From Saccoglossus kowalevskii (Eukaryota; Hemichordata; Enteropneusta; Harrimaniidae), in assembly GCF_000003605.2 (NCBI RefSeq), contig NW_003122912.1, forward strand, positions 154,029 through 218,028: 64,000 nucleotides of DNA, written 5' to 3'. How positions within the stretch are numbered: the first letter of the stretch is position 1; each line of letters begins with the position of its first letter. Positions 915-64,000 of this stretch are shown piece after piece. Position numbers and translations under genes: made by a program. The notes under the pieces were generated by a model, which saw only the letters and a list, made by a program, of their open reading frames with translations, was not told where the DNA came from and did no database searches.

Positions 915-1165
915 TGTGTCTGTGGTCAATGCGACCACAACACTATTACGACTATATGTTCCCAACTTGGCGCTGATTGTTTGAATAATACCGTGTTGCT
1001 GTCACAGTACACTACTTGTTGTTGACACAGCATGTATATGCAATGTGATCTTCGAGAAGTAGATCTCGCAACTGAAGCAAAATCACACGAGATGATGGAA
1101 TAGAAAGTATGTCTCGAACATAAATTACATTTCTATACTAAGGGATGACGTTGTAAATAAAAAAA

Positions 1166-20276: not shown

Positions 20277-22770
20277 GATTATTTCTAGGCTGTTCAACTA
20301 ACACATGCCGGTGTTTTCTCGAGGCTGATGCAGACGCTTTTTATACGGTAACGACAATGACAGGCAATACGTCCTTGATAACCCCATGTACTTCTTCACG
20401 ATGAACAATTTATAAATGTTCCAAAACATTCAGCGCCAGACCATTCTACCTTCAATGTGATAATTAATTAATGTTTCGGGTTAATGTATATTCGGTGTGA
20501 ATGTGAACCATTATACGTAAAATTCGATGAATGAACTTCCCTATACTATTGTACCATTGCCATTAGTACACCGTGCGTCACTTTTATCATATGGGTAAGC
20601 GTTAATAATAACAAACACAGTTAAAGATGACAGAGAAATATTAATCAAATTGTGGCATATAATATATAGTTTATAATAAAAGTACACAACATTAATATGT
20701 TATCAGCATATGACATGATATTAACAGTGATATTCACGCACTAATGGCAAGATAACAATTGTGTACAGTCTGAAAATCACTTTAACATCCGATATAACGG
20801 ATTATTATTTTTGAAATTCTACTTATCACATATATCCGGTTTGCAGCTTTTGGTCAACAAAACTATACATCAAATTTGCAATTTGTGTAACTACAGGGAC
20901 ACTGTTTACCGCGGATACTGCCTGTGGTTGAACTAAAAAGTATCTATTTTATTTTTGGTCGACTTTCCCACGGCCTCCACATGCCTCAAATGTAGTTGGC
21001 ACGTTAATGATAGCTTGGTGATGCATTTCTCCAAAATAAATGTATTAATCTTTTTATGTATGTATTTTGAAAATAAACAAGTTCAACATTTTATTTTTGG
21101 ACTTGAGAGAATACTACTCACAATAGAAAGAATACGTACCTACATTTATAAAAGATCCGGTTCCAAATATATTTGTATCGGGGTACATCCAAATAGCTTC
21201 CAATCTATATGTCTATATAATAGCAATAAAGTAATTATCTATACACTGTTGTTGGGATGCATGTATCCATACTTTAAAAGTAATACAGTAATACAAACAC
21301 TCATATAACACTATTATCAGTGATATGACATTTCATTTCGGCTCCTATACTGTTAATTACAAATGAATTGTATGTAACGTCGTGGAAAGCGGTTTCATCA
21401 CGCTTAAATACAACGCCTGTGTTATATTGTAAAATTACAATAACCACACCTAGACAAACCTCTATCCTCTAGGTAGTATAGTAATACCCAATAGAAACCG
21501 ACTCCACAATACACACAAACTATGCTGTAAGTATCAATTGATAGCACATGAACCAACGCTAGTATTAACAATCCCAACAACTTTTAACAATCCAGTTACT
21601 AATGACAGTAAAGTAACATTAAATTTCACTGGCTGTGCTTGTTACCTAGACATTAAATTTGTCCGGCACTGTACATACTCACACTAACTCTATCTCTATT
21701 CCCAACATTACTTAATATCACAGTGAACTAGCTTTTTAATGTTTTCATCTCCAATTTATAAAAGTTTACATTGTTACACAGAATTAAATATGCAAATAAG
21801 ATGTATTTCACAATTGTGAACGGAAATGACTTGGGATGAATATGATTGGATTTCAAAAATAAATTATTAAAATATTGACGTGAGGTAACATAACCCCCCA
21901 AAAATTATACGTATACGTTGAAAACTATCTTAGAAAACTTATTTATTTATGGTATTGATGGAAGTCATGAAAAGCTTTAAGTTTATATTGTAATATTCAA
22001 ATGAAAAAAATAAAATATTATTGTATCTCATAGCCGTACCAGTCAATATATTCACATATTGACCGTAGCTACTCGGTATCTACTTAATGATTATGGATTA
22101 TAAATACATACAATCCATTGGAATTATGATGAAACATCTATTTGTGAATGTGGGATGCTCCGAATGTTGTCATTGGAAGCGGGAGCGGTCTTGCAGCCAT
22201 TTACAAAATGTTTGTTGTATTCGGTTTTATTCAACCCCTCGTACAGGATTGTTAACTTCGGCTTCGCCTTGGTCAACTATCTGCGCCATTGTGTGTACAC
22301 AATTGTGGTTTCATTGTTCCTGGGGTTGAATATGCAAATTGTTTCCGATCTATGTCCATTGTTGTATGATCAAAATGATTTCAGGTCGCCGAGCGACATG
22401 CACAATAACAGCAGTATTCATCTGTTACATACTTCAATTTAATGCTAAACTTCTGGTTAATGTTAGATTTGATTTCAGACAACTTTATCTGTTTATTATC
22501 TATATAGTATACAGAAGAGCCACTGTCATAACGACCGTGGGTTAATTAGAAAGACCTGAATTTCACTCTAAATGGAGAGACTAAAGTTTTAAAATCTTTT
22601 GCAATATACAGTGCAGTGTGGACTACATTGAACAGCATTTTTTCTTGTCTACCTATCTCGGTTGCTGCGTGCATGTGTTATGTAGTTCCTATTGCGCAGA
22701 TGAACAATTGGCTGGGAATAAGTTCAGAAAACACGACCTGGACGCCACGGCACATTCAAATATTAATCGT
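20277..22770. other. Gene-free stretch
   Basis: No coding domain recognised. Around 22226-22336 a short inverted pair (ATTCAACCCC ... GGGGTTGAAT, about 110 bp apart) suggests a tiny palindromic repeat. Upstream DNA of the orphan receptor occupies the left part. Confidence 0.4.
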
Positions 22771-24545: not shown

Positions 24546-24783
24546 TATTGTAATATATGTCTGTTTGTTTCGTGTGTACAATGCATTATTATTGATGGAA
24601 ACATTACGATGATTATACCAAACAAATAGATAATTTTTATCCTTTATCGCAGGTTTATGGTTGATTTGTTTTCTATTAGTTCCTATATGACAATCATATT
24701 ACACAAAGTGGGGTATTAATTGTTAATATCATTAGTTGGAGCTCATCGAAAGAAGCAGCATAGAGTTTGCATATTCCACAAGC

Positions 24784-26325
24784 ATGATGGAGCTAAATGA
24801 GACACGTAATGAAACTGCAACATTGAATTATGGTACTTCCAAATCACCGATGCCGTGGAGTTCAGAAATGTTGACTACTCATCTCCCATTTGAAGAGCCG
24901 CCGTTAATATCCATATGGACGGCAATAGCAGGTAGTGCTCTAGGCCTAGCTATAATTCTAGGAAATGTTGTCGTCATATTACTTTTTACGAGAGTTAGAA
25001 GTCTTCGGAAACTATCAAATTTATTCATTCTCAATCTAGCTGTTTCAGATCTTCTAGTCGGTTTGATGTCGACTACTGTGTTCACTATGTACAACGTAAT
25101 AGGAAAGTGGCCGTTCAGTCGTTTAGTTTGTGATATATGGCTCACTATAGATTACACTGTCTGCAGTGTATCGCTGTTTGCCATATTGGCTATAACTGTG
25201 GATCGATACATTGCATTAGTTGATCCAATACGACATTTAACTCGGATCAACAAACGACAGGTTTGGACAACAATATGTCTGACATGGATAGTAGCATTTG
25301 TGATATACGGGCTACCTAACTTTCTGTGGCCTCGGTTCCAACGTGAATACAGTACTTCTGAAGAAGAGTGTGTTATTGCATATTTGGACGTTACATGGTT
25401 TATAATCTTGCAGACAATATTAGGATATTGGATACCATTATTTGTTGTATTCGCACTGTATATCAAAATATATCAAGTGGCTACTAAGACTGCACACAAA
25501 AGAGTAAGCCGGATTGACAATGCCGGTGCACAGTCCACGAACCCAACATGTAAGGCACATGAACACCGGACGTTCAAGGGTGTGGAAAACAGAACGGAGC
25601 CTAATAAAGAATTGCCAGATTGCACAGACTTAAATAATGCCTCTAGCAGTGAAATTGGAGTTATGAATCCCGCATTTTCTAAGGATGGAGATATTTTCGA
25701 AACAGGAAGGCCACAAGACAGTACAATCGTTCCGTTCGATGGCAGTGGTGACTTAAATGACAAGCAATGCTGCACCACGGACGATGCAGTAAAAAATCAA
25801 TTTCACGTTTTTTCTGAACAAGACAGATCAGGATTTGCAACTCACATTGATGATGCGATCTCAGCGAATAAAGTCACCCCTTCAAAAGAAGCCAGTGATA
25901 CAGTGGAGCTACACGGTAGGTCAGAATCAATTACTACGCTGAATTATCCTGATCATGTATTTGAACTAGATGACATGCAAACCGGTCGACGCGAAGATAA
26001 AATGTCTGCGGCCTACGTTGGACAATCTAAAACTGTTGTGAATACAGCGCACAATATGGCAAAAAGAACTACTAAAACTAATGAAAGTAAAACATTCCGC
26101 ACTGTCACTACATTACTAGCAGCAATTGTGTGTTGCTGGATGCCGTACCACATAGTTGCCATTGTGATTACCTTATGTCCAAAATGCATTCATCCTGATG
26201 TGTTTAAAGTGGTCTACTGGATGTACTTCACAAACAGTGCAATTAATCCTGTATGTTACGCACTTGCTAATCCTATGATGCGAAAAGCGCTGAAAAAACT
26301 CATCTTTGAACGCAAACTAGCTTAG
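24784..26325 (+). CDS. Muscarinic/histamine-like class A GPCR, copy C (513 aa)
   Basis: Complete single-exon paralogue of the two receptors at the left end, on the opposite strand. The first ATG is 24784; the immediately following ATG at 24787 aligns with the start of the paralogues, so either may be used. Sequons N5 and N9. TM1 43-68 (N61), D89 in TM2, C116 and ECL2 Cys196, amine-binding Asp123 (3.32), DRY at 140-142, TM5 proline 218, CWMP around 451-454 in TM6, an ECL3 CPKC pair, and NPVCY at 488-492. The third intracellular loop (about 232-435) is about 100 residues shorter than in copy B and largely different in sequence, although a short segment (SSEIGVMN) is shared. Long tracts of TM3-TM4 are identical at the DNA level to copies A and B, suggesting conversion between paralogues. 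Confidence 0.9.
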   Translation: MMELNETRNETATLNYGTSKSPMPWSSEMLTTHLPFEEPPLISIWTAIAGSALGLAIILGNVVVILLFTRVRSLRKLSNLFILNLAVSDLLVGLMSTTVFTMYNVIGKWPFSRLVCDIWLTIDYTVCSVSLFAILAITVDRYIALVDPIRHLTRINKRQVWTTICLTWIVAFVIYGLPNFLWPRFQREYSTSEEECVIAYLDVTWFIILQTILGYWIPLFVVFALYIKIYQVATKTAHKRVSRIDNAGAQSTNPTCKAHEHRTFKGVENRTEPNKELPDCTDLNNASSSEIGVMNPAFSKDGDIFETGRPQDSTIVPFDGSGDLNDKQCCTTDDAVKNQFHVFSEQDRSGFATHIDDAISANKVTPSKEASDTVELHGRSESITTLNYPDHVFELDDMQTGRREDKMSAAYVGQSKTVVNTAHNMAKRTTKTNESKTFRTVTTLLAAIVCCWMPYHIVAIVITLCPKCIHPDVFKVVYWMYFTNSAINPVCYALANPMMRKALKKLIFERKLA

Positions 26326-39640: not shown

Positions 39641-42020
39641 TTATTCATTGCATCTAAAGAAAATAAGACACAATAACGCAATTATTATCTAATTATGCAG
39701 AAAATACAATGATCAGGCTATGTATTTGACAATGATATAAAATGTTCTATTACAATTCTTCTACGGACTTTTTACACGAACTAGTAGATAGTGTATTACC
39801 TCTCGCCGGATGTCTTCCTAAAAGGTCCGTGAGTTATAAATGAATCGTTTGGTAGATCAGAGTATTCTTCTCTTTTACGTCCTTTGTCGACGCATCCCTA
39901 AAATCAAGTCACGTAATATGTTGAATGACAGCAATGTGCAGGCAATGCATACTTTGTTTTGTTACACACAATATACAACATACGATTTTAGGATTAGTTT
40001 GGGCACACGTACCTGATCACAGCGTGTTCCAACCTCTGCTTTCTTGCAAATCACAACCGCACAATGGATATACAGATCAACTTGCTCATCATCAGGAATG
40101 TCAACATAAACGTTGACAACATCATATGCATCCCAAATAAAACGTTTGGTACGATCGTCGGCTGAAGGTTCTTCCATCACTGTTTCATCAAGGCATCTAT
40201 GATCATAATAACATAATTTAGTAATGTTATTTAATAAAATTCTGCTATTGTATTAGTCGAGTAATTCGCTAGATAAACTGGATAATGCACACATTAAATC
40301 ATAAATATTTCACCCGTTAGTAATCATTGGATATCTGTCGTCCGAAGAATGTGGATTGTCACTCTGAGATGCAAAGCAGTCCACTACGAATAATTCCAAA
40401 CTGTCATCTCCACTATGAGTTGATATACCAAAGTATATCAGGACGCCATCGCACACTTCAACAGGGAAATCCACATTAGGATCCATTATAGCTGTGAACG
40501 ATGCATCTTTATACAAGGTAGCCGTGACGTTGAATTGCCCAAAACCTTTCAGTTGTATTAACACGGAGCTTTTAAAACAAAGTACAAATTAATTAATTGT
40601 GCAATATCTATATGATAGAATAAAATAGCCTTTAAAACATTTAATTTTGATTTCGGCTGCTATGACCCACCTGTATGTACGTCATCTATGACAACATGCA
40701 ATTATGTGATGAACGCGATTTAGTGGATTGACACAAGCATATTCGACAATGTGAAAATCCTACCACAAGTAGGATATCTTTTAAAGCTCAAATTGTCGCT
40801 CTTAATAATAAAAATCAAACGTAGTAGTAGTAAAACGTAGTATATAATACAGGATATACTGTCGTTCTACTCTCTTATCAAATTACAATTTGCTTGTTTA
40901 GTGTATTTCATTTGAGGTAGATTATACAAGTCCAAGATTGTCCGAAAGTACCGCGAATATCGCTCAATAAGAATTACATAATAGTAAGCTTTATTGTGGA
41001 AAGCATACCAAGGATTAGCTTCAATATATATAGGTGCAATAATATATTCAGTTCCATAGCAACACAGTAGCTCTATGATTTTAGTTCCTCTTTCCGTATA
41101 GACCATGTTTATGTATTCTATTGACTTGTCTTTTGGTTTCTCCTGTGAAACAACAAAGCAGAACTTATGGTAATTGTGACGCCCTATGCTAAATGTTTCC
41201 TGTACAACTGAGTATATAAAATGTATTTATTAGTCTCCAATCTTATGTACAAATAATTGAATACATATAAATAACTGACGTTCATGTTAAGAAAGTATGA
41301 GAAATACAAACTTCGTAGTATTCACAATATTTTAAAACACTCACGTTTCTGAAAAGCACAACGCAACTACAATGCTAGGTTTGTCTGTAACAATGTGTGT
41401 GTGTGAAATAGAATGTAGAATTTTAGACACAACATAGCAAAATGTAAAACCAGCTTTCAATACAGTACAATTTTTATTTATTTATATTTTGTTTTCTGTA
41501 TATATAAATATACAGTTTCATATACAACTTCTTTACCTAACCATGCCTCTCCCAGTCCGTACAAAAATATATACGTTTTTCTTCAAAACAGACTATGATT
41601 TTTTTTTGTAGTAGTTGTTCAGAAGTATGGAAACTCATTCATTCATCTACTACTACTAAAATGACCTATGTCATCAATATACAATTCAATAGTTTTCACA
41701 ATTATTCTTTCTATCTATCATGCATGTATTATGTATTTACAAATAATAAATTAGCACTACCACCGAAGTTAAACGTATCAAGTTTTTTTATGTAACAAAA
41801 TACAGTTTACTTACTATAGAGATAGTACCACAATCAAAAAGGAATGTTTCAAACAAAAATGCATCTTCGCCATCATGAATAACATCTATACCAGTACACG
41901 CTGGATCATTCAGATGAAAGTAAGACGCATTTGCACCGGAATGATGAAGGAGCTCCAAAATATAACTCTTGCTAACAACTGCACTCATTTTGGTTTCACT
42001 GCATATTATGCCATCTGACT
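39641..42020 (-). CDS. ZP (zona pellucida) module and C-terminus
   Basis: Six exons. [25 protein letters not shown] and ELLCCYG provide its four conserved cysteines. [17 protein letters not shown], a central [19 protein letters not shown], then the classic NGCLDET split by an intron, [12 protein letters not shown], and [14 protein letters not shown] (about 39876) directly after the last cysteine marks the expected furin-type cleavage site. The terminal mini-exon (39641-39653) gives RCNE and a stop, so no membrane anchor follows in this model; an alternative acceptor near 39604 would give a hydrophobic end (see findings). ZP modules mediate polymerisation after release of the C-terminal propeptide. 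Confidence 0.88.
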
Positions 42021-45000
42021 CTGAAATAGTGATTAGTGTGATTGTTTTATTCTATAACATAACCATTCACACACAACACAATATCAACATAGACTTACAT
42101 TCATAACGTATTTTTATCTAAAATTCATTCTAACATTACAATAACACATCATGTTTTACTAATCCTGTTAACAGATAAAAACGCACCTTCTTCACAGTGT
42201 TTTCCGTGATGTCCTTCTTGGCACTGGCAGTGATAACCCTCAGAACTATCATTGACACAGAGTCCATCGTTCTGACATGGATTGGGTTGACATGAATCTG
42301 GGATCAATTAATAGAAACCTTGTTGAAAACGGTATTTATGTGTTATGCAGTCATTCGTGTAGCAATTATACGTTACGTTTCACCAGCAACAAATACCCCC
42401 GCCTCCCCAATTAATCACATCACGTTATATGTTAATTAAAGGGCGGTAGTCGTTGCGCCACGCAAGCGCGAGAAATATGGGTCTCATATAAACAAAGATG
42501 GCGACTTTGACTGTTGCGCAGATCAACGAGTACATATTGACACCTTTCAAAGCTATAACTAGGTTATATTTGGGTGATTGGGAGGTAGTCGAGCCCAAGT
42601 TAAACCTCATACTTGTGATTTCTTTTTGAAGAGTTCTTTGGATTATGGGAAAAATCAAAGTTTATCAACACAAATGTCGCACATGGTCAGCGCGACGACT
42701 ATCGCGCTTTAAATTATACGTCGGCCTTTTTGTGGAAAGAATCAAAAGAATCAATGCATCTGTCGGATCATCTGTCCGTGGAAGACGGCTTCTCAAATAC
42801 TGCTTAACGTTTTAACTTGCTTCGGGAGTTCAGATGGGGCTTTGTTCGGTAATGAAAACCACCAAAAATTTGGTCTTAGACTTGCATAGTATCTATCTAT
42901 TGTATGTTTGTTGGTGTTTGTTTTCAATAATATAAAACTTTGGGAATGTATAACTGGCAAAAGCTTCCCGACATCGCGACCAGAAGAGTACCCATCCACG
43001 ACCTCTTCCTGGTATTTTAAAGCGATGTATAGTCCAGTATCCTAGTAGTCTTCCAATGCCATCATGAAAATCTCAAAAAATAAAGGGAAATCCAAACGCG
43101 CGAAATTGCAGTTTTGGTGCTGTTTCTAATAAACTGTCAAATCAAACTCAAATGTTGTCCTTAACGCTGATTGATGGGATTATAATGACCTTCTCAATCA
43201 TTGCATGACGCATTGAAATCAGACCGGTAACAATCATCACCGATGTCGCGAGTGGGCGTCTGCAAGATTCACATGTATCTTGTGTTTTTTTAGCGATATT
43301 CCGGCTTTTGCCATTCACACAGTCCCATATTTTATTGAAAAAAACACCTAATAATAAAGAGACTGTATGCAAGTTTATCTTTTTTTATTTACTGTTTTTC
43401 TTTGACACAGATTTTGATATGTTGTTGCAGATGCCTAGTGGGGACCACTATGAGATTTGTTTACTACGTTTTTTTTCATAAAACCATGCATCAAGTTCCT
43501 TTTATATTTTATAAGTAGGTACCTTTGGTGGATATCTATCAGAGAACAGTAATTATGTGATGATACTTTCAATTCTCTAATTACATAATGGTGCATGTTC
43601 TATATCTAATAATGATAAATGTCACCTGTACAGTTCTCTTCATCACTACCATCCCAGCAATTATAATAACCATCACAAATTTGGAAGGCGGGAATACATT
43701 GTCTATGGTGGTGGTAATAGTGATAGTAGTAGTAATAGTAGTGATAATAATACTCGTACTTTGTACAGTTGAATTCACAAGCTGAAAATGCAAAATGACA
43801 TGTCATAAATAAATAGATGGTGACGTAGGGTTGAAACAGATATGTCCTGTTTATGTTGTCTTAAAGTCCTCTACTTGAAGGCATATTTAACAACCATAAA
43901 ATGCACAATTTATAGATGATGTGGTTGAGGATATAGAATAGATTCGTTTATTATCGCATGTTAAATCACCTTCTGTGTTTGTTGTGTGTGATAGAGCGTA
44001 TTCGACAATAAAAGGATATTTACCTGCTCTGTGTTATCGATAGTGTATTTTTAATGTACATTAACGAATATTCATGCTGTACTGAATTATATTGAGATCA
44101 TATTCCAGGCACAAGACCAGCTAAACTAATGTATTATACTTGAACACCTAATAATTGTTCTTTCTATGATGGAGAGTTTTTTTTTTTTTTTTGACATTTT
44201 ATAATTTACAAAAAGAGTGTATATTGTGTTGAAAATATCAATCTCAGGTTCTTTATCAAGTTCTGTTTGCTGTCCTCAATTAATCTTTATTTTGATACAT
44301 AGGCGCATCTTTTTATATTCTAGTATTGTTACTTGCATCGTTATTCCCTAGTTTATATTTTATTAGGCAGTACCCTTGGGGTTCAAATATCATAATATGT
44401 TCCAATATACTGTCAATGCTTTGACATTTTTATTTAAAATAACAGCCCCATACATCGCTGTGTATATCTTTGTGCGAACACATTTGCACTATTGTCAATA
44501 ATGTCTATATGAAGCAAGAAATATCTGAAGATAACTGTAATGGCCCGAATTTATAATCAGTTATATTGGTTATGTTTATCTGTGTTACCAAATCTAGATG
44601 TACAAACACAAAAGTGAACATTTATTAAACTCACGACAGTTCAGTTCATCACTGGCATCTCCACAGTCACTATGGCCATTGCATACCATATATTTTGGGA
44701 TGACTCTTCCATTATTGCATTGAGAATGCAATGCAGAATCGTATCCTATGTGATAATATAATATTTCCCGTATATTACTTTCAAATATATAAAGATCTGG
44801 CGGCGTGGCAATACACATGTAATATACAGTAAAGCTATCATCTTGTATACATACCACAGTTTTCATCGCTCCAATCACCACAAGCATCATATCCGTCACA
44901 CAAATTATAATCTTCAATACAGCGACCATTATTACACAAGAAGGACCCTTTTCGGCAACCAACTACAACGATGAATGTAATTCTATTATTACAAATTATT

Positions 45001-48000
45001 ATTAACAAATGAAAAGAAGACAAAAACAACATATTACAGATTTACTATTTGATCAGTTTAATGGAAAATTATATATATGCTATCGACGAATGGCTACAGT
45101 TCCTTTAACTTAAGTAACTTTTTCAGGTTTAGTTGTCTCATAAAATTATAAAGTAGACAAATTGTTTTACCACAATTGATTTCGTCGGAATCGTCCCAAC
45201 ATTGACTGTATCCATCGCATTGTAACTCGGCTGCTATACACCGTCCATTTTTGCATTTGAAACTTGTCTCATCATTGCAATCTGATAAATATATATGATG
45301 TAGGATATATACAGAAACCATTTGATTATAAATAATGATAATTTAAGGGTAGCATGTGCAGAGCAGGATTTGCTTATATCTTAGACTTTTGTACAAAAAA
45401 CAAATTAGGCTTAAGAATGAGGTACCTTGCTCTGAATAACACAGCATAGCATTCCCTACATTCATCAGCGTACCAAAATATTTTAACGACTATTTTATAT
45501 ATTAGCGTAATTATCGTCGACTCTCAGGACACACTCGTCGTCAGCAGACTATATCACCATCCATGTGTTTGAGTGATAAATTTTCCTTGCTGTGGGACTA
45601 CATGTCTGAGTTCCAGATGTATTGACGCATAGATTTATAATTTTCGTTAGTTAGTTAGTTAAATATTCAGATGTGATAGGTAATACAATCACGTAAAGTT
45701 ATTTTGCTGTTGATGATCTCTGAACAAAATCAACATTTTCTGCAAAACATTTCACAATGAAATTGCTTTACGGTGAATGATTACTATTTTACTATTTTTT
45801 AAGCATACCCCGTGCAGAAAGAAATGCCATAGGTAGTCCAGACGCTGAGCAACAAATGCAACAGGGTCTGATGCAGCAAACGATGCAATTCGTGATTTAG
45901 GTCCATGGCTAATGTTGCTGCAAATTATATCAGACTGTCGCAGTAATAAAACTGTCATACAATACCTTATTATGACTGCTTTTCTAACCATCAGCGCGAA
46001 ACGGATACGACTCGGATGGCGATGCACGACGTATTATCCTACAATTGTTGAAATACTCACCACAGCCAGATTCATCACTTAAGTCACCACAGTGATTGTA
46101 ATTGTCACAAAGGTCATGCCTATATACGCACCGTCCATTTTCGCATTGAAACTCATAATGGCTATTGCATTCTGTAATAAGAAATGGTTTTATACGTAAA
46201 GGGCCATGTATTTTTCAATACGTTGTAGCTCTGACTACGATGTGACTATATTAATTTGTGCTGCACGTACCTGTATTATTACATTCTTTCTCGTCACTGT
46301 AATCACCACAATCATTATCATAATAATCACAAACTTTATAATGCGGAATACACATGCCATTATCACATAGAAAATAACCATCAGAACAATCTATCAGACA
46401 AAAAAAGAAGATGAAATTAAGATCGATTCTCATTTGTCACACAATAGTGTAATTATTAGTTGTTAATTTAAAATACAAACTAACTCCATGATAGTAATAA
46501 TAACTAACCAGATAAATAAATAGATTGAGCACTATCAATGTATTACCTCCGCAATTTACTTCGTCACTTTGGTCCCCACAATGATCGTAACCATCACACA
46601 CTGCTTCAATAGAAGTACATCTCTTGTTATTACACGTGAAGTGATTTGTATTTGAACATTCTGTAATATAAACATACACTTTTCAGCTGTAACATTGTAT
46701 TATGTTATAATCGAAACAAGATTTCATATATTCGTGTTAAACTGCTCTTAATTTAAATGATACTTACTACAACCAATTTCGTCTGACCAATCGCCACAAT
46801 TATTATAACCGTCACACAATTGGTCACGATTTATACACAGTCCATTGTCGCAATGGAAACTATATTCCCAACAATCTGTAATATGATAACACAATTACTT
46901 ATCATGAGTAAATATAGAAATCAGAAAGGCTTAGAATTATGTAACACTCGGCGGAGAACAACCAATTCACCACATCCCAAATGACGTGGGGTTATTAACT
47001 GCGCTTTATAAATTGTTCAATCTATGTTTGGATGTGTGTCAAGCTACGACCGACACCTACTGATAATGAGTCCTATCTAAATCAGGTTTTCTTAGTATAA
47101 CAGTTGATTAACATACGTGGATGATCTGTTATAATAATTATAACGTACGTATATATGTTATGTTATATATATATGTGTTATGTTATAAATGTAAATATTT
47201 AAACAATATTATCTTACTAGTGCAATTGATTTCATCCGAAATGTCCGGGTGCCCACAGTCTAAATAACCATTACATACATCCCATTCCTCAATACAAACA
47301 CCATTGTCACATAGAAACATATAGTCACTATTGCAAGCTAAACAAAAACAAATATTTGTGTTGCCACGATTATGTTGTCAATATTGATATTAGTTGAAAA
47401 CAGCTGTGTGAAAATAACAGTTGTTGTACTCACTGCAATTCATTTCATCACTCTTGTCGTCACAGTAAGCCCATCCATCACATTTTGAATCGTACCACCC
47501 CGTACACATACCATTAGCACATCGGAACCCATCGCAATATTCATATGCTAAAATTGAGAATGTCAATAAGAAAACAGAATGGTAAATGAATGCATGAATA
47601 AAGTTTGAACACAATATATTCATTTTATATTGTATATAGAAATATGGGATAAGGACGGGAGATTAATATGCTTTTTTGGACAAAAAAACAATAATTCACT
47701 GACTACATATCAAGGAAACAATATCGAAATACACTTACTGCAATTGTTTTTTTCGCCTTCATCCCCCCAATCACCACAGTCATTATCACCATCACACAAT
47801 TGCCAATCATAAATGCAAACTCCATTACTACATAATACTTCGTTGGTGTCGTTACATGCTAGGAGTAAAAATGTTAGTGTTTAAATTGGTGATATATTTG
47901 GACGAGAAAACCCACCACAACGTTATTTTCAAAGTACACCCACACTTCACTGTCGGTAAATTTAAAATGTGTGAAGTACGCACAGAAAATAACCTCGAAA

Positions 48001-51000
48001 TTCACAATAATGTCGAATTATTTAAACTGTTCCTGTAGTAAGAACGACACGTTTGTTTTGTTTTTTTAAAGCAGCATATATGAACAATCAGACACAAAAC
48101 TGCACTTACTGATGAGTATAATACTGAAATTGAAATTGATCATGGCACCTTCGCCACAGTTTTTATGGATGAAAATAACACAACTGATGTACACTACGTC
48201 ATCTGTATGTGCACCCAAATACGGAGTCGGTATAGGGCTTATTTAAGTTATTTTTCATTAAAACGATAATCACTCATAAATCACTCATGTTACGTGAAAT
48301 ATATAAATAATAACGCTGAACATAAATAAACTTTTTGGAAGAATGATAAAACACATCAAAGTGACTTTCTAACTGACGTCCAAAAAATGATGGCGTTCAA
48401 AACACCTTATCAAAATTCAGAATCCGTAAACGGCAATACAATCCAATAACTTTTAATAGCAACTGACTATATTTACCACATCCAATTTCATCACTAAAAT
48501 CAGTTAATCTACAATTCAGATAATGATTACACCGTGATGTTTCTGGGATACATCGACCATATTCACATTCGAATCCTTGGCACGCATCACCTAATACACG
48601 ATATAAACAAAACTTAATGTTATGTATTCAGTGTTTGGCCTGAATAATAATGATGAATGATGGCATTGGTGAAGAAGCATTCCTCTGCCTTGAATGTCAT
48701 TATCATAAATATATGATATACAACATGATGTATTACCATTATTTAACGTAGTAGACTAAGATAATTTGAAATTATTTTCTTTATAATATTCAGTTCGAAG
48801 ATATAATTATATTATGCACACACTAGTCTACACTTTTGGAACAATTATTGAAAAGAAAATGAAATGGCAAGCAAGATTAATACCAACACACTGGGTAAAT
48901 TTAAGTTTGTGCCCATTATTGAGAGGAGGTAATATGCTTGCTACAATATAATAATTACAGTCACATTGTGTTATAAATCTGGCGTACGAATATAATTATA
49001 ATACTTACCACAGTACAATTCATCTTTATTGCAGGTATTGTGACCATCACAAACCATGCTACTTGTCAAACATCCCCAATTCCAATATCCACAATCAAAG
49101 GCCCCAGGTAAACTACAGTCTATTTATTGGATTCAAAATTTTAATAATTATTCAAGCAACAGTGAGTAATTCTTCATGGATTTAATCACATTATTGTATT
49201 TTGCTGGCGTGACGGAATGGGTAGAACCAGACATAGTGGCGATGTATGATTGGAAACAGACTTTCGATAAAGTGAGTGAGACATTTGACCATTTTGCCTT
49301 TTCAACTCGGTAGCAGGGTCAATCACAAATATAGCAAATCGTGTATAATAAGTTTGTAGGTGCGCCCTCGTAAATTTTATTTTGTGAAATTGACGCGTGA
49401 GTACGAACACGTGGTCTACACAGCAACATCCCTAACAAAGTAATTTGCTTCATTTATTGAAAACCACCATATATATAGTATTAATATACATCTGTCGCCG
49501 TAACGCCATAAGTTACAACGTGCCGTAATTTTGCGGTATTTCAAGGGGTATTTTCATCCTACTATATTAGGAAATGCGAACTCCAAATATGGAATGATTA
49601 CGTACGTACGCGCCCTCTAATAATAAAAACAAACATGGCTGCCACCAGGGTTTGACCGGACTCCACACAAAGAAGTTCGCTGACTCTGCTCTAAACTTTT
49701 TGGATTTCGGCATTCCCATGATGTATCCTTGGAAAGAAAAGATGTATAATAATAAGTTTATTACGAGGATNNNNNNNNNNNNNNNNNNNNNNNNNNNNNN
49801 NNNNNNNNNNNNNNNNNNNNNNNNNNNNNNNNNNNNNNNNNNNNNNNNNNNNNNNNNNNNNNNNNNNNNNNNNNNNNNNNNNNNNNNNNNNNNNNNNNNN
49901 NNNNNNNNNNNNNNNNNNNNNNNNNNNNNNNNNNNNNNNNNNNNNNNNNNNNNNNNNNNNNNNNNNNNNNNNNNNNNNNNNNNNNNNNNNNNNNNNNNNN
50001 NNNNNNNNNNNNNNNNNNNNNNTCGTAATAACCTCATATTATACACTACCAATATGACTGGGTTCTAATGATTTATTTAGTCCAAGTTATTTAATGTAGA
50101 CTACAGTGCATTGGGACTGCTATCTATATTATTCTCAATATCAATTGTGAAACCACGTTTGTGTCGTTTTTTGTGGTAGCATATTTGTTTCAAATGATTT
50201 ACCAAATATTTTAAATTAATTCAAATAATCTAAAAAAAAATATTTTTTCACTCTAATTTGTAGGAATAAATAATGACCACACTTGAATTTTCTTCTGGGA
50301 ATCAGAACTATTTATTCTTTCACATTTCTTTCCATGAAATGTATAAATCTGAACAGGTTGAGTTAGATAAGTAGCTCTTTTGACTAATATAAATCGCCCT
50401 CTCAATTTTCTTTTTATTATAAAATTATTACCAAGCTTGTAAAGTATATTTGCTAATTAAATGCACTTTATCTCGCATAACATTCCACAGCGAACATTGC
50501 ATTTGTGATGAAGAAGACTGCAATTGGTATACGTATCGAATTTTGTTTTATTATTTAACCGAGTGGTCAAGGGGTTTAGAACTGTTAACGTGATTTGTAT
50601 CTGTCAGTGAGTGGTGAGAGTGTTTCATCATAAACCCATGGCTAAACAACAGCGTCAGCGTAATCTAATTGGATTCAAAATATCACTACATTTGACATAC
50701 CGCAATCGAGTTCATCACTCCAGTCAATACAATCATTATAACCATCACACAAATTGTAGCTGTGATGAATACATATACCATTGTCACAGGTAAACATGTC
50801 GTCACTGCAAGCTGATAGAAAAATGACCAACACGTAATAAAGACGTCTTCAGGACGAAAAAAGAATTGATTGTTAAGTTGTTAAAAAATGTTTTGTCGTA
50901 TATTGTGAAAGCACTTTCCACTAAAAATTCCGTATTTAAATCAGGTATACTACATCAGTGAATTGCAGTTATCAACGTATTCAAAACACCAAAATTAATT

Positions 51001-53326
51001 ATATAAACGGATCGCCAGCTAAAGTGTCAATAACGTGCGGAGTAAAATTATTGTGGATTTCAATGTGTAAATGTTTGTTTAAAATGTTCATAGATGCATT
51101 ACTCACTGCAGTTTATCTCATCGCTCAGATCTTGACAATGTATGTAGCCATCGCATACATCCCACTCAGATATGCACTTGTAGCCATCGCACTGCAATTC
51201 GTTATAATCACATGCTGGAAGCAAATCAACATTGTATAATATTTTCAAGATTCGAGAGATCCACTTAGACGCGTGGACGAGTAAAATGAGATTTATGTAC
51301 GTTATGTGCTGTTAAAATGTATGTGTTCTACTTACTGCAATTGCGTTCATCACTGAGGTCGCCGCAATTGTCATAATTATTGCACACGTAATGTGAGTGA
51401 ATACATCGACCATTATCACACAGAAAGTCATCTGTGGTATTGCATGCTGTAATGCAATGAACGACATTAGCATGAAATATATCAACTTCAAATGTTTACT
51501 TACTTAAATTATCGTGAGTCAAGCGAATTCAGTTACCTGTAACAAAGTAGTTCGGTAGTAATCCATTACATTCTTGGGTTACATTTAGCCCAGTTAATCT
51601 CAAATTACCTAATTTATTAGCAGCGAACTTTGGCACACCAGCTCAAATAGTGTACCACAGTCATGTTGCAATTTATCGTATTCGTTACTAGGTGTATTTC
51701 CTTTCTTGTATAAGAAATGCTGGTAAAAGTAGACGTTTCTATATACAGAATTGAACTACAAGGGTCCCTCCCGCCACAATAAATTGAACTGCTTGTAGAC
51801 AGAGGAATCATAATTCTGTTCATAGGATGACGATTAAATACTCACAACAAAAATATTCATCTTCGCCATATTCGCAGTGGTTATGATCGTCACATTTCAC
51901 TGTTGAGGGTAGACACCGCCCATTGTTGCATGTGAAATGGTCGCCCTGGCAGTCTGACAAACAATGGACAGTATGATTATTGATTTGTTTTTAAATGTTT
52001 TTGAGCCAGGCGACAGTTCTGGACATTGAGTGTCACTGTTGTCTCTCCTGCAAGTGCTAGTGTTGACACATAAGTCATATCTCTCTATCAAATGGCAATT
52101 TTAATGCGCTATCCTGGTGTCAACCAGACTCGGTCAAACACAAGCACTTATAATTATTGATTAGTCTTATTCAATTTGCAATAAAAAAGGGTGCAATTGC
52201 AACTTTCTAGCAATATAAATTCGGTTATTGATTAGTCAAAGAATAACAATTTATATACTTACCACAACCAGTTTCGTCACTCCAGTCCTGACAATGATTA
52301 TACCCGTCGCATATATGTCCTTTATATATGCAAATGCCTGTATCACATCTAAGTTGGTTACTGTAACAAGCTGTGAATACAATTTCGGTAGTATGTAATC
52401 AAATGACATACTTTTAAACAGTGTTTTGGTAGCTATATTGTTGCATGTGGCATTCGCATGTTGATGTGTACGTTATTTTAAGTCAATAATTTCTCATGCA
52501 TGATCATGGTCTTTTTTTACAGAGAAACGGGCATGTTCCATAAAAATATTGACGTTTTGAACGGCTTTGTGTCACTAAGTTATGTCAAGAGCGGACTTAG
52601 AAGAGTCTTTTATATTAATTAACATACTAAAAATTATGTAAATGTCATCATATACTTTTTTGGGAAACCACACCTCAATCTTATTTCGTGTATAACATAA
52701 GTGGAACTCGCGTAAAATATGTTATTGTTTTTTTTTTAAATTAAATCGGAACCAAAGTATGAACATCTTTAGATACTGTGCAAAATATCGATACATCGAA
52801 AAAGAGTGTATATATGTGACTTAATTAATCCCTAAACATTGTATCTGATTAGGTATAAATTTAGAACTAAGATTTGTTTGTTTTCAAAACTGTTGTGGAT
52901 AATAAAGTGAAAAACTAGTGGTATAATTTGTTATGGTTTATTACGATTCCACATAAAATTATTACACCTATGTTTACACAGGGATCAAATTATCTTACTA
53001 ATCTGAGATTAGATTATATTTAGAACAAGGTTATTTTTTCATGAAACAGCATATTAACCATGTTTTTTTCTATTTTTAATCTTCGATCGACATGTAAACG
53101 TTTGGAAACATGTTGACTCAAATGAAATAATGTCATGTTGCAATGATTCAACAATGTATTTTTTAGGACTTACTGCAGTTAAGTTCATCACTCCAGTCGT
53201 CACAATCAGGATATCCATTACACTGATTCCAGTGGAAAATACACTGTCCATTGTCACATATAAACATATCATCATAATCATACCAATCATAATAATAGTA
53301 GTAATAATCGTTCATATTAGTACACT
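39641..53326 (-). CDS. Multi-LDLa / EGF / ZP-domain protein (core of gene, 5' end unresolved)
   Basis: At least 26 exons joined by consistent phases encode about 1,090 residues: 19 LDL-receptor class A modules, one EGF module, then a ZP module. LDLa modules are about 40-residue, six-cysteine, calcium-binding ligand-recognition units; ZP modules polymerise into extracellular filaments. A secreted or cell-surface matrix protein is inferred. LDLa exons in transcript order: 53174-53326, 52263-52370, 51846-51953, 51336-51446, 51107-51214, 50701-50811, 49009-49119, 48477-48590, 47739-47858, 47434-47547, 47218-47337, 46768-46875, 46547-46660, 46271-46390, 46061-46171, 45171-45281, 44855-44962, 44635-44745, 43626-43781. 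EGF: 42187-42297. ZP: 41815-42020, 40952-41142, 40314-40568, 40013-40196, 39800-39897, 39641-39653. Splice-site dinucleotides fit GT-AG throughout. No named orthologue is recognised. A signal-peptide exon at 57604-57663 is the likely start, but the joining exon was not found; a split into two genes near 48.1 kb is possible. Confidence 0.82.
42187..42297 (-). CDS. EGF-like module exon
   Basis: A single phase 1-1 exon encoding a six-cysteine EGF fold: NPCQNDGLC, then [16 protein letters not shown]. The pattern C-x4-C-x5-C-x10-C-x-C-x8-C is typical of non-calcium EGF modules; there is no D-x-D/N-E calcium signature before the first cysteine. It links the LDLa array to the ZP module. Confidence 0.92.
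42440..42708. mobile_element. TTAA-flanked MITE, copy 1 (intronic)
   Basis: 269-bp element with inverted ends AGGGCGGTAGTCGTTGCGC and, at the right, the complement of AGCGCGATAGTCGTCGCGC, flanked by TTAA (42436-42439 and 42709-42712). TTAA target use fits piggyBac or Kolobok derivatives. No coding content. A second copy, inverted, lies at 59025-59305. Confidence 0.85.
43626..45281 (-). CDS. LDLa modules 16-19
   Basis: Modules 16 (45171-45281) and 17 (44855-44962) are canonical. Module 18 (44635-44745) lacks the first and third cysteines (YDSALHSQC, then NNGRVIP), which form one disulfide in this fold, while keeping the other four and ASDE. Module 19 (43626-43781) is 52 codons because of a Tyr/His-rich loop ([20 protein letters not shown]) between its second and third cysteines; its calcium box DGSDEENC is intact. 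Confidence 0.85.
45765..46050. other. Intronic island of unusual base composition
   Basis: Between LDLa modules 15 and 16 a stretch of about 280 bp is richer in GC than the surrounding intron and has an open minus-strand frame of about 90 codons. I recognise no domain. It may be a fragment of an unidentified repeat. Confidence 0.25.
46061..47858 (-). CDS. LDLa modules 9-15
   Basis: Seven closely spaced phase 1-1 exons of 108-120 nt. All six cysteines are present in each. Module 9 has [11 protein letters not shown] with a three-residue spread before the last cysteine. Module 11 reads [11 protein letters not shown], with extra residues in the calcium box. Module 14 (46271-46390) has an extended YYDNDC. 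Modules 12, 13 and 15 are canonical. The 34-40 residue spacing is typical of LDL-receptor repeats. Confidence 0.88.
48110..48210 (-). pseudogene. Probable decayed LDLa exon (or alternative first exon)
   Basis: A perfect GTAAGT donor follows a minus-strand frame in which TGT-GGC-GAA-GGT-GCC resembles the DNA of the TGTGGCGATTGG...GATGAA part of intact LDLa exons, preceded by a further TGT in the place of the fourth cysteine. An acceptor-like CAG near 48211 would make it a phase 1-1 exon like its neighbours, but the later cysteines and the SDE box are gone. The same segment contains an ATG (48141-48143) followed by [11 protein letters not shown], a hydrophobic run that could serve as a short signal sequence for a promoter inside the gene. 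Confidence 0.35.
48477..49119 (-). CDS. LDLa modules 7-8 (divergent)
   Basis: Module 7 (49009-49119) has six cysteines but a Trp-rich middle (CGYWNWGC) and NKDELYC in place of the acidic box, so it probably lacks normal calcium coordination. Module 8 (48477-48590) reads [11 protein letters not shown], one residue longer than usual between the fifth cysteine and SDE. Both exons are phase 1-1 and flanked by large introns. Confidence 0.8.
49485..50045. mobile_element. Hairpin-bearing MITE-like insertion, copy 2 (intronic, gapped)
   Basis: Inverted copy of the element at 13576-13935, sharing for example the stretch around 49690-49740 and the segment near 49490-49570. The assembly gap 49771-50022 falls exactly between the two expected arms of the hairpin (TTTATTACGAG at its left, TCGTAATAACCTC at its right). 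Lies in the intron between LDLa modules 6 and 7. Confidence 0.7.
49771..50022. other. Assembly gap (N run)
   Basis: 252 Ns within the hairpin element; exons of the LDLa gene could also be hidden here if the gap is larger than shown. Confidence 0.95.
50557..50605 (+). repeat. tRNA-like fragment (Ser/Leu-type A box)
   Basis: ACCGAGTGGTCAAGGGG matches the D-arm/A-box of tRNA-Ser or tRNA-Leu. No matching B box or acceptor stem was found, so it is a fragment of a tRNA-derived repeat at best. Confidence 0.3.
50701..53326 (-). CDS. LDLa modules 1-6
   Basis: Six phase 1-1 exons. Module 1 (53174-53326) has a Tyr/Asp-rich insert ([13 protein letters not shown]) between its first and second cysteines, then a normal CDNGQCI...DWSDELNC core. 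Modules 2, 4, 5 and 6 have the standard acidic calcium box (DWSDE or DLSDE). Module 3 (51846-51953) keeps six cysteines but reads EYGEDEYFC, so Asp-x-Ser-Asp-Glu is altered and calcium binding is doubtful. A hairpin MITE sits in the intron downstream of module 6. Confidence 0.85.
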
Positions 53327-53329
53327 CTA

Positions 53330-56300
53330 AAAAGGTAATAGATAATTAATTTCAGAAAAACCGCAATCACCAACATGACTTGAATAAATTGAATTATCTC
53401 CTGAGAACAGTCTATAAAGTTTTGTTTCAGAATAAATGCCATTTGAGGTTGATAGGTTACAACTATATTGTAATAAAAGATAATAATATTTTCGGACCTT
53501 GGTTTTAGTGAATGGTTGAATGCTTCAAATACACACAGAAACTTCAATGTACTATATTTAAGCAATAATCTCTCACTGAAGGTAGCGAGATATTTCACAA
53601 TTTATGATGAGTTATTATTTAAGTGGCTTTAAGCAATGGAAACAACACAAAATGTTTGAGCTAAACAGTACATTCGACTCCTCGTTTTCGTTAAAATAAC
53701 TGTTCCATTTATCTAACATACACATATTATAATGTCCTTCATTGCAGTACATAAACAGAATTAAAGCTAACTATCAAAGAGTAATGATTTATTAATAACA
53801 TTTTCTATTCATATGTTTGACCTATCATGGAAAAATGATTGTCCTCAAGCTGATATTCAGGCCCTGAACAATTTAAGTATTAATTTGGAATGTCTTTTTT
53901 AAATATTTTTAATTAAAAGTGGAATTATCTCGGAAAGTAATCTTTAGTGTGTGAGCGATATCTGCGACACGGTGACATGAACGCAATTTAGTTGAAATTG
54001 AGAGGACATATATATATATCATTATTCAAAAGATATAAGAAGAAATTCATTTACTCTTTTACAGGTACTATTCACTAGAAATAGGAATATTCATTAACTG
54101 TATATGTAACCAATGTCAATACTCGTTCATGTGAATTGAATTGTTCACTTGTGGAATAATTTAGCAATTCCAGTAATGTCATCTAATTAGATTTTCGTTT
54201 TGCTGGGTGGTTAAAAGAAATTTGCTGGAATTTTTGTTGTTTAACATTTGCTTGTACATATCAAAACTGAATAGATGGATGGACGGTCGACAGACCATTG
54301 AATAAATAAATTATCCTTCCAAAAATGTAAAACAAGTTCTTGTCCAATCACAATAGTGTATTTATGCACTGGTATATAGTACATAACTGCGTATTTTCTG
54401 TCAAAATGTTCCTTGTTTTGTTTCCTTGGCTTAGCATTTAGAAGTTACTGCCAATTTAAGAATTGATCAAAACACGTAGCGTTGTGTTTCTGTTTCAAAA
54501 CGCGATTGGTGTAATTTATTTCAAGTCAGGATTATGTTTGAACCACAAATATATTGCCTACATTAAACAACTTCTGTGTACATGTATTACCTTGATACTG
54601 GCGTTTATCATGCTGGGCTTTTCTCAACAGACTGCTGTAATCCTGGAACCAAGAAGATACATGCGTATCAGCGTATGATAAAGAAAGGCATTATGGTTTT
54701 ATGAAAATATCAGCTCAGTTTCTATTTATATTTAACGGCTATACGAAGTTCAAACACTGTAGTTTTGGATTAATCTCACCTGACGGTTAGAGCTAGTCAA
54801 ATAGGAGAAAAGAGAAACTAACATGCAAATTATTCTAAAATAGTACTTTGGTATAGTAGATATAGTCAGATATAATAACATATTCATATCTTCAGTCTAG
54901 CAACAAACTTATTGGAGTATATAGCTAGTCGTCGAAATATTGATTATCGTGCTAATTGGATGTTGATAACAAACAAACAAACAAAAAGGTAGGGTTATTT
55001 AAGTTACATAATGACATAATTCCACTCGACTATATGTGTAATATGAGTACTCAACTGGTATGGCTTGTGACATTATTCAGATTGAAACTACTTAATTTTG
55101 TTTTTCTCACCTCTTCGTTTTCATGTCTTCCTGATAGTGTGCTTTGTTCACCCACCGAACCATCGCCTGGCCTCTGCAGAGTCCTGTGGAATGGTACGTC
55201 ATCAGCTGTAACATACTGGAAGATGAGATATTATAAGTCAATGCCGGATAATTTCATATTCAACAAAAATGGTAATAACACGTGGGCAGTGTCGTTATAC
55301 GAATAATTTCTAATGAATGGAGTGGAAATATTGTTTTACCTTGTAGTCATTCGCCTTAACCCGATGATTTGAATAATAATATTTTGCTCAATCATCGTTG
55401 TTGTATTTATATATTATCTTAATGAATCCATATAGTTTACTATTGAATGTAGTGTTTTCGAGATGTGACAACTGACGGTATACTGACACATAGTATAATT
55501 ACCTACAATATATATACATGTAACCTTTTCAGGTCATAATATGAACCTGATCAATCAAGACTTCGCTACTTTTCCTATCAGTTTCGCAGATATTGAGATG
55601 ATCGAGACGTCTAATTTGTGACGACACTGTTTAAATTATCCAGTAATTAATTTGTTCGTTATATGAGTGCAGAATACGCAAATAAGATTCTAATTAATTA
55701 TATATGATTGGATTTGTGAAATTATGGTAATGTTCATCTTCACTGGGTTTTGCAGACGGTCAAACAATTATTTTTAATTGAAGTAAAACATGTTTGCAGG
55801 TGTTAACTAGTTCTATTCACAGGGAACTCGTTAACTCCAAAAACAGGGCGGGCAGGGTTATTATTTGTTTGATGATCTTTACAATTACAGTTGCTCGGAC
55901 GTACTCGGTCCCTCTGAATGATCATATCCCTCGTATAACATTCTCGAAAATAAATGTCCCCAAGGTGGAATGTAACATCGGTCACGGAAATGTACATGTA
56001 CATGTCGCTCATGTTAGGAATTGGGAAACGCTTTAAAGCAAAATACCACATATTAAATCTCAATTGTATGTTTCTTGATCAGTATCTTTGCAAAATTGTA
56101 ACATTGAAGATCACGTTAACAACTTCATACCGTGACGAAACGGGGAGAAGAGAACTAAATTGGCGACGAATAAGTAATTATTCAACAGGTAAATAAACAA
56201 AGACTTAAAATTAATATGCGAATTATAGAAAATATGGAAACGTGTCCGGCGAGGTATACATTAACACTTACTCACAATAAAAAAGGCAGTCAATTTCTTC

Positions 56301-57603: not shown

Positions 57604-57663
57604 CTGTTGAATGGTTAATGCTGCCACATATAGTGCAATTAGTGTTAGTTTTCTTACGACCAT
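57604..57663 (-). CDS. Signal-peptide exon, probably of the LDLa/EGF/ZP gene
   Basis: ATG at 57661-57663 opens MVVRKLTLIALYVAALTIQQ: a basic start, a hydrophobic core, then a polar end, typical of a secretory signal peptide. The exon ends in CAG with donor GTAGGT, phase 0. Two bases before the ATG lies a good acceptor (TAATTTTCAG) with a branch-like TACTAAT. A non-coding first exon ending TACTG-GTAAGT at about 57821 fits upstream. Orientation and position suit the 5' end of the LDLa gene, but LDLa module 1 enters in phase 1, so at least one linking exon is missing; it could instead start a separate gene. Confidence 0.5.
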
Positions 57664-61113: not shown

Positions 61114-64000
61114 ATGGCGGAAGAAATACAAAATCCTAGGTGCTTCTTCGATGTGTCTATTGATGGTCAGAAATGTAAGTAATACGTGATGCAAAAATAT
61201 GTTAATGCTTCGGTGACATCATAAACAGGACATGTGACAATTTCTGGTGTAATCACGTCATTATTGTTGCTCCCAACCCAACCTATGGAAACAACGGGGA
61301 CACAGTAAGTGACAATGCAATTCGTGGTAATGGCAATGTTAAATCGAAATAGGGAGATAGTTATAATGTGTTTTGTGGCGCGGTCGTGTGTGTTCGGTGA
61401 TCATGGACACCAATACCACCTCGATTTTCGTCGATGACTTTCACGGTACGGAGGATATCAACCTCGCTCTTATACATAGAACGGTTTATTAAAGTGCGGT
61501 AATGGCCAACGTCACTGGAAGTTTACCACCATGATTGTTCTAATTGAGTTAAATAGGAAAGCTTCGGTTTCTATATGTGATTATACTCTAAAAATATAAA
61601 TGAAAGAGTCGATTCAGATTATTTATGGAATAAATTGGGCAGTCACGTTAGGAATGTTCAAATATTCGCCTCAAGGTGGTTCGTATAACGTATTTTATAA
61701 ATTAACTATAATCCAAATCCACTGGTTGATCAGAAATTACTGCATATCAAATTAACACTATTTTATTAAATGAATGCGCTTATCAAAATGCTTGTCATGA
61801 AAACCATTGCCTTTCACAACAAACATTTCTTTTATGTTGTAGGTGGTCGTATGATATTTGAATTATTTGCTGATGTTGTTCCAAAGACTGCAGAAAATTT
61901 CCGAGCACTATGCACTGGTGAAAAAGGAGTAGGTGCTTCAGGGGTTCCATTACACTATAAACAGTGTACATTTCATAGAAGTAAGTTGATCTTTGGTTTG
62001 ATCAGTGCACACACTTTTTATGCAATAATAAATACAATTTAAGGATTGTCATGTGCAGCTTCCAAATTGTCTCTGACTTGCAACATATTTGAGACAGGTT
62101 AAAATGCCTATTGCATTAGTCCACATTCAGATAAAGTATGAAAACTGGGACTCTGTACATTCGTCCATCCATCTCCACCTATATCTTAGAAATTCCTGGA
62201 CCAATTAAACTACACACATACATCATACATATTCACTTCCATTTGTTTGGCGATCTAATTCAATATGGCCGAATGGTGGCCATTTTAATGTTAAAAATGC
62301 ATCAAAATTTAGCATTGCTGCCTTTCGGGACCCTGATCTTGACCTTACATGGACAGGTATTGTTAGAATTATTTGGTACATACATTGAACATTAAAACTT
62401 AAAATTTTTCAGATAGAATTGAAAATGGACAATGACAGAAATTTTGTACTAACGAATGCTGTTCTCTGCCATGCACGCTGACTCTGACATGCATTGACTG
62501 GGTGCATTCAACTTTAAAACTACATTTAACATCATTTTACCATCAGTATTTGTGTATTAATTAAAGCGAGAGGGTCGTCACCTGCAAAGGTTGACTTTGG
62601 TCACATTGTCTTTGTGAAATGTAGTTGTTAATTGCTCTAAAATATTGAACCTTTCTCACGATTGTGTCATTATTAAAGCTGCACACTGCAGTAAGTTCTA
62701 CATCATGTGTACCAGTATGTAACACTGCTCTTATTCTGTCTTTTCAAAGTAATTAAGTCCTTCATGATACAGGGTGGTGATTTCACCAAACATGACGGCA
62801 CCGGCGGTGAGAGTATATATGGGGAGAAGTTTGAAGATGAGAACTTCAATATTAAGGTAGGAATTTAGCCACTGGTTTTATTGTTGAATCTAACTAATAG
62901 ATGTTTCTTAGCTTGTCTTTACTGTGGTTATATTTTTCGGGGTCTGTATTTTCAATGGTCAATTTAAATTTTATATTAGATAATCCAGACTGGTGTTGAT
63001 TTTGACTGGTTGATTTTGTTTTTTTATCACATAATTTTGATCAATATCATTCATAGTTGTAACGTGTGAAATATCACTAGCTGATTGGGTATTGTAAACA
63101 CCACAATATTCATGTTCAACCATTCCATGCATGTTTGAACAATGTGCTGGGAAAAAAACAAATTATATGGAAGTACACTTTATATTACAGCAGTAAAAGA
63201 ATTTTGTAGTGATTTCTATTCTTCAAACGACACTATGACAACTAGTTTGTAAATAGCTTGTTGACTGAAATTCTGAAAGAATAATAAGGATCATAATTCT
63301 GTTGATTTTCATAACTTTTGATGATCATAACTGCAAAAAATGATTAGACATTATGACTTATTAGCGTAAATGAGCATATGATATTTAAAGGTATTTGTGT
63401 AAAATTGCAATTACTTTGTTTGTTTTTTTGCTTTTTTTATACTTTTAAAAGCTATTCATGTGATGTAGAGCTGCTTGGCTGTGGATAATACTAGACTAGT
63501 GTCACTTGTATCAAACAGCTTGGTATCATGCTGTATCAAATCCCTGTTCCTGGTCTCTCACTGATAGTATTGCAGTCAAATTAATTCATGATTTATTTGC
63601 ATACTCTGATATTGATATTAGTCAATTTGTTAGTATTGTTGATTGCCGTGACGTTTTTGTGACTGGTCTATTTTTTTTCTACAAATCAAGGCAATTTTGT
63701 GTGAGCTGTATTTCTCATTATCAATTGAATTCTGGTAAATGTGACTGCTCAATCTACACATCTGAGAAATACCATAATATACACACTGTTCAATGTTCTC
63801 ATTTATGATCTTTTACATAGCACGATATTCCTGGTTTACTGAGTTGTGCAAATGCTGGACCCAACACTAACGGATCACAGTTCTTTATCACTACTGTACC
63901 TTGTCCTCATCTTGACGGTAAACATGTGGTCTTTGGAAAACTCCTGAAAGGAATTGGTGTGTTACGAAGATTGGAAAATGTAGAGACAGTTCAAGATAAG
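61114..64000 (+). CDS. PPID: Cyclophilin 40 (peptidyl-prolyl isomerase D), 5' part
   Basis: Four exons, 61114-61174, 61843-61980, 62750-62856 and 63821 to the right edge, with GT-AG junctions and matching phases (1, 1, 0); 162 codons lie inside the window. The product catalyses proline cis-trans isomerisation and, through TPR repeats expected beyond the edge, acts as an Hsp90 co-chaperone. It starts [18 protein letters not shown] in a good Kozak context. The cyclophilin domain has [18 protein letters not shown], catalytic Arg66, Phe71, Met72 and Gln74 in FMIQGGDF, and SQFFITT with Phe124. Position 132, Trp in cyclophilin A, is His (PHLDGKH), and [13 protein letters not shown] follows: both are typical of Cyp40 rather than small cyclophilins. 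The TPR half is not seen, so the gene name rests on the domain signature. Confidence 0.92.

Follow-up and report, generated by a model that had tools for sequence, protein, structure and literature searches.

The minus strand of the window (the whole stretch of 64,000 nucleotides that was analysed) probably carries an animal gene for a secreted matrix protein in which 19 LDLa modules in a tight row are combined with one EGF module and a polymer-forming ZP module. Along this strand, 19 LDLa exons (53326-43626) are followed by the EGF exon (42297-42187) and five ZP exons (42020-39800). All of these exons are open, the cysteines are conserved, and an exon-by-exon reading found the splice phases compatible across the LDLa, EGF and ZP exons. 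The first-pass annotation had proposed an LDLa(19+)-EGF-ZP architecture on matched phases, which is the arrangement found on this strand, together with a domain search as a check. Pfam returned LDLa with an E-value of 8.8e-119 (17 separate stretches passing independently, in array plus EGF of the first model), EGF with 6.2e-8, ZP-N (PF23344) with 3.5e-6 and 27.7 bits at a cut-off of 24.7, and ZP-C (PF00100) with 1.3e-21 and 77.5 bits at a cut-off of 24.6, both ZP values for the revised model. The splice profiles were made from this gene's own sites, thus all splice scores given here are relative.

Searching the window with a loose six-cysteine LDLa regular expression produced 19 rows, every one on the minus strand and located between 52.4 and 44.9 kb; they represent 16 different modules, three of them counted twice. 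Twenty order-1 Markov resamplings yielded not a single match to this expression. Every one of the 19 modules occupies a single exon with a length divisible by three and phase 1 at both ends. This agreement is partly built in, since phase 1 guided the choice of sites; the availability of open phase-1 sites for all 19 modules counts for more than the agreement itself. Ten modules were scanned singly against Pfam, the remaining nine only inside the array. Eight of the ten passed the cut-off of 24.1 bits: LDLa 1 (53174..53326, 38.9 bits), 3 (51846..51953, 34.4 bits), 4 (51336..51446, 41.2 bits), 8 (48477..48590, 26.8 bits), 9 (47739..47858, 30.7 bits), 13 (46547..46660, 36.6 bits), 18 (44635..44745, 43.6 bits) and 19 (43626..43781, 31.9 bits). 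LDLa 10 (47434..47547) stayed just below with 23.1 bits and the degenerate LDLa 7 (49009..49119) reached 18.0 bits. From the exon-by-exon reading come LDLa 2 (52263..52370), 5 (51107..51214), 6 (50701..50811), 11 (47218..47337), 12 (46768..46875), 14 (46271..46390), 15 (46061..46171) and 16 (45171..45281), and LDLa 17 lies at 44855..44962. The acceptors of LDLa 7 and 17 scored below zero (-2.1 and -2.5) with a profile that left both out. In the first model LDLa 18 had a long tyrosine-rich start, whose acceptor at 44796 scored -0.4; the phase-1 acceptor at 44745 was preferred, since it scores better (3.3) and yields a module of normal length and an intron of 109 bases. Screening the 19 introns for phase 1-1 exons, with a splice score above 1 required, revealed no further LDLa exon; this threshold could miss exons with weak sites. 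Two overlapping phase 1-1 candidates with at least three cysteines in the intron between LDLa 19 and EGF were rejected, neither being LDLa-like. The longest intron (1581 bases, between LDLa 6 and 7) includes an assembly gap of 252 N (49771-50022) that could hide an exon.

The array comprises 739 residues, among them 112 cysteines, and holds eight N-C-S/T sequons. Six cysteines are present in 18 of the 19 modules, so that 112 of 114 cysteine positions are kept. LDLa 18 has four: precisely C1 and C3 are missing, and the module is otherwise kept. In the LDLa fold C1 and C3 pair in one disulphide, thus one whole disulphide is gone from this module, and the predicted number of at least 19 LDLa modules stands with this correction. 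Tyrosine-rich or Tyr/His-rich inserts of TAY-like triplets were seen in the two outermost modules, between C1 and C2 in LDLa 1 (53326-53174) and between C2 and C3 in LDLa 19 (43781-43626). The median identity between modules is 0.455 for 171 pairs in the revised model (0.444 in the first model). Of the six direct-repeat families in this region, five fall on LDLa exons and one is a 41-base pair of copies in two introns, 73% alike. Median identity and the position of the repeat families indicate that the copies are old. A recent tandem duplication or an assembly stutter is not supported as origin of the array, the repeat copies being 60-76% identical in DNA to their reference copies.

Tandem LDLa modules are a feature shared with LRP2 (megalin) and the LDL receptor family, found with modules 1-17 as query. 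Members of this family have YWTD propellers and a membrane anchor with a cytoplasmic NPxY; Pfam matched no such propeller (Ldl_recept_b) up to an E-value of 0.01 anywhere in the spliced exons, which were covered from LDLa 1 through to the tail. LRP2 also differs by the lack of a ZP module and, in the part of the alignment shown, by longer linkers. The spacing from C6 to the next C1 position is a single residue in 12 of the 18 cases; three linkers have two residues, one has three and two have four. In LRP2, ten junctions counted by eye in domains 1, 2 and 4 of that part range from 3 to 9 residues. The calcium and ligand roles of the DE, second, third and tryptophan positions are those of LDL-receptor structures. 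The terminal DE is present in all 19 modules; at the second calcium-ligand position 14 modules have Asp and five have Asn, whereas the third ligand position is Asp in 6/19 modules and a Trp at most four residues before C4 occurs in 4/19. The modules very probably fold, but calcium binding may be weak or absent in many of them. The earlier description of many calcium-dependent binding modules is consequently supported in part, by DE and the second ligand, and left short by an Asp at the third position in just 6 of 19 modules. Within the one-gene reading, and not excluding other roles, the array might act mainly as a structural rod or cation-holding spacer instead of a ligand-binding region. The one-residue junctions, the surplus of acidic over basic residues (148 against 33) and the scarcity of the third Asp and the Trp speak for this, yet the universal DE and the six cysteines of 18 modules, which make folding probable for most modules and calcium binding for some, do not; we regard such a use as possible and give it rather less than even weight.

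The second half of the gene begins with the EGF exon (42187..42297, phase 1-1). ZP-N is encoded by two exons, the first at 41815..42020 (phase 1-0) and the second, which includes a linker, at 40952..41142 (phase 0-2). In the first model the latter exon ended at 40871; this donor was rejected with a score of -3.1 in comparison to 8.1 at 40952. ZP-C is likewise divided into two exons (40314..40568, phase 2-2, and 40013..40196, phase 2-0). Among sequences of the PDB the revised ZP part has weak relatives in uromodulin (E 0.00048) and ZP2 (E 0.0065). A match of the first model to GP2 (E 0.00032) is absent from the matches of the revised model up to an E-value of 0.5. The following exon (39800..39897, phase 0-2) holds the tribasic RKR and, after it, a short Gly-Pro stretch that may, judged by eye, resemble an external hydrophobic patch (EHP). 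The first-pass annotation had named a dibasic site: the basic site is RKR in KGRKREE, but the strict furin motif R-X-K/R-R does not occur after ZP-C, there being no Arg at P4. In excerpts of two studies a consensus furin site after ZP-C is described as usual, not universal (PMC11673550, PMC13361971).

Without a further splice the frame stops directly after 39800. A possible last coding exon of ten bases lies at 39644..39653 on the minus strand (acceptor 7.2) and ends in a stop codon. A strict scan for a membrane tail down to 33 kb gave no rows. A relaxed scan to 30 kb gave eight hydrophobic rows with acceptors from -6.3 to 5.8, none of them convincing: the nearest candidate, at 39603, has an acceptor of -5.2, and the best, at 30952 with 5.8, lies 8.8 kb downstream. 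None of the eight was adopted and none was excluded. A decayed or non-polymerising copy of a ZP module would account for the missing convincing anchor, the imperfect furin motif and PDB matches that are weak throughout. We consider such a decay very unlikely, however, as the ZP exons are open and in phase and both ZP halves exceed their Pfam cut-offs; moreover, the amphioxus proteins BbZP2-5 are likewise reported, in the available part of the study, without a detected transmembrane segment (PMC3543715).

Judged by its exons, the LDLa(19)-EGF-ZP arrangement is likely to be one gene. Strand, order and phase match over the intron of 1328 bases between LDLa 19 and EGF, which is shorter than the longest intron of the gene, and none of the five hydrophobic ATG starts in this intron has a phase-1 donor that would give EGF-ZP a signal-peptide start of its own. 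Two adjacent genes, a secreted LDLa-only protein ending past module 19 and a separate EGF-ZP protein, are an unlikely alternative to which several observations nevertheless lend some weight. Among the 19 LDLa donors that of LDLa 19 scores lowest (5.4 bits), read-through beyond it is ended by a stop a few codons later, the 1328-base intron lies exactly at this border, and stand-alone EGF-ZP proteins are described for nemerteans and molluscs in excerpts of two studies (PMC11673550, PMC13361971). The identical phase 1 on both sides of the intron and the failure of all five ATG starts argue against two genes and for a single one.

At the 5' side of this gene, a tentative signal-peptide exon was placed at 57604..57663 of the minus strand (phase-0 donor of 7.6 bits) from hydropathy and a look at the sequence. 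The tentative second exon joining it to LDLa 1, at 54591..54642, is not significant, because an equally good candidate arose in 39 of 200 resamplings. Plus-strand cyclophilin exons from 61857 on suggest a limit to the upstream reach of the ZP gene.

Combinations of LDLa with ZP and of EGF with ZP are both already known; the part that looks new is the long LDLa array ahead of EGF-ZP. The first-pass annotation was not aware of any well-described protein having its modules in such number and order. In the open-access literature, as far as its texts were available, no description was found of a protein that joins EGF and ZP to a long LDLa array, so the statement is uncontradicted there; it has to be qualified by the LDLa-vWFA-ZP proteins of the amphioxus egg coat. 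According to the available part of that study, BbZP2-5 contain LDLa, vWFA and ZP (PMC3543715). They share with the gene described here the position of LDLa upstream of a C-terminal ZP module and differ by a single LDLa, one vWFA and no EGF, in contrast to 19 LDLa and one EGF. Over the span from LDLa 1 to the tail, the spliced exons gave Pfam matches to LDLa, EGF and ZP only, and none to vWFA. EGF together with ZP is found, again in excerpts, in the nemertean proteins NeZPL1/4/5/6 (PMC11673550) and in EGFZP/EGFL of the mollusc shell (PMC13361971). These proteins differ in having one or two EGF modules and, in all NeZPL, a transmembrane segment; LDLa is not mentioned for them in the excerpts, and the string 'LDL' has no occurrence in the available text of PMC11673550. 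An array of small modules borne by a ZP module also has precedents in the same excerpts, with eight CUB in NeZPL2 and repeated EGF in the ascidian HrVC70 (PMC11673550), in place of the LDLa present here. A 2026 review names, in its available part, LDL-receptor domains among the additions to ZP proteins (PMC13361971). The partners of nematode ZP proteins are mostly PAN, EGF and vWFA in the excerpt of PMC7456536, and excerpts on Oikopleura and coral name LDLa and ZP domains for separate proteins (among PMC3390340, PMC8382919 and PMC7579821). In all, the single parts are familiar, but an LDLa array as long as this one, preceding a ZP module, seems to be an undescribed variant.

The idea of a filament-forming matrix or coat protein, put forward with the annotation, fits the Pfam-matched ZP-N/ZP-C module. 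Uromodulin and GP2 resemble the predicted protein in an EGF beside ZP-N/ZP-C, a cleavage site and a C-terminal propeptide, and differ in a GPI anchor, a D8C domain and the lack of LDLa. In uromodulin, as described in the available part of the source, EGF IV precedes the ZP module, cleavage releases the EHP, and the domains before EGF IV are branch domains (PMC7737619). By analogy, a filament would form after cleavage of the tail, with the upstream domains branching off. A cut at the basic RKR would let the C-terminal peptide depart, and the ZP module, with ZP-N and ZP-C and the adjoining EGF module, could then polymerise into a filament. Acidic, dense in disulphides and some 740 residues long, the row of 19 LDLa modules would form an arm projecting from this filament like the N-terminal domains of uromodulin. 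Such an arm might do the binding or spacing work of a coat, be it an egg coat, cuticle, tunic, shell or mucus matrix. We infer a single transcript, secretion, cleavage, polymerisation and the role of the arm, and hold the whole mechanism, one gene for a secreted ZP-filament protein with a projecting LDLa arm, to be reasonably probable. It is favoured by exons that are ordered on one strand in compatible phases, by Pfam matches above protein-level cut-offs for all four domain types, by the relatedness, weak as it is, of the revised ZP part to uromodulin and ZP2, by the intron after LDLa 19, which is not the longest of the gene and has no suitable ATG start, and by modules that are old and have nevertheless kept nearly all cysteine positions; the example of uromodulin supplies the mechanism (PMC7737619). 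Against it stand the weak donor of LDLa 19 with the nearby stop, the negative acceptors of LDLa 7 and 17, the imperfect furin motif and the loss of the GP2 match with the revised ZP model. A convincing membrane tail is also missing, whereas anchorless uromodulin did not polymerise outside the cell (PMC7737619).

The upstream domains of ZP proteins vary by lineage, and with them what a coat binds; a ZP protein with 19 LDLa modules could be characteristic of an egg, cuticle or shell coat specific to one lineage. As a tentative and rather doubtful generalisation, there may be a class of ZP-filament proteins in which an unusually close-packed rod of 19 LDLa, with mostly one-residue linkers and partly without the canonical calcium and ligand residues, serves in the polymerised coat as a stiff and acidic spacer or as a multivalent trap for cations, and not as a lipoprotein-type receptor. 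An arm of this kind with very short linkers would be a natural test of LDLa arrays as matrix rods or cation stores versus receptors. The overall view of ZP or LDLa biology stays as it was.

For the neighbouring genes, 125 open reading frames of at least 64 amino acids were listed in the window, with minus-strand frames at 39.6-53.3 kb left out beforehand; 83 were taken into comparison and Pfam search and the other 42 dropped by hand. A tRNA scan and an Rfam scan gave no matches. Cyclophilin gene exons, identified by a cyclophilin match, lie at 61857-63900 on the plus strand and extend near the window end; they probably resemble PPID (Cyp40). Another rhodopsin-type receptor frame, at 19353-20297 on the minus strand, is closest in the PDB to beta-adrenergic and trace-amine receptors. 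Three long and related frames of such receptors (7tm_1) lie at 3-1001 (minus), 3428-5434 (minus) and 24736-26322 (plus), the second and third being 92% and 65% identical to the first, and the nearest PDB entries to 24736-26322 are muscarinic, 5-HT1 and histamine receptors. These three frames probably represent a local expansion of amine receptors.
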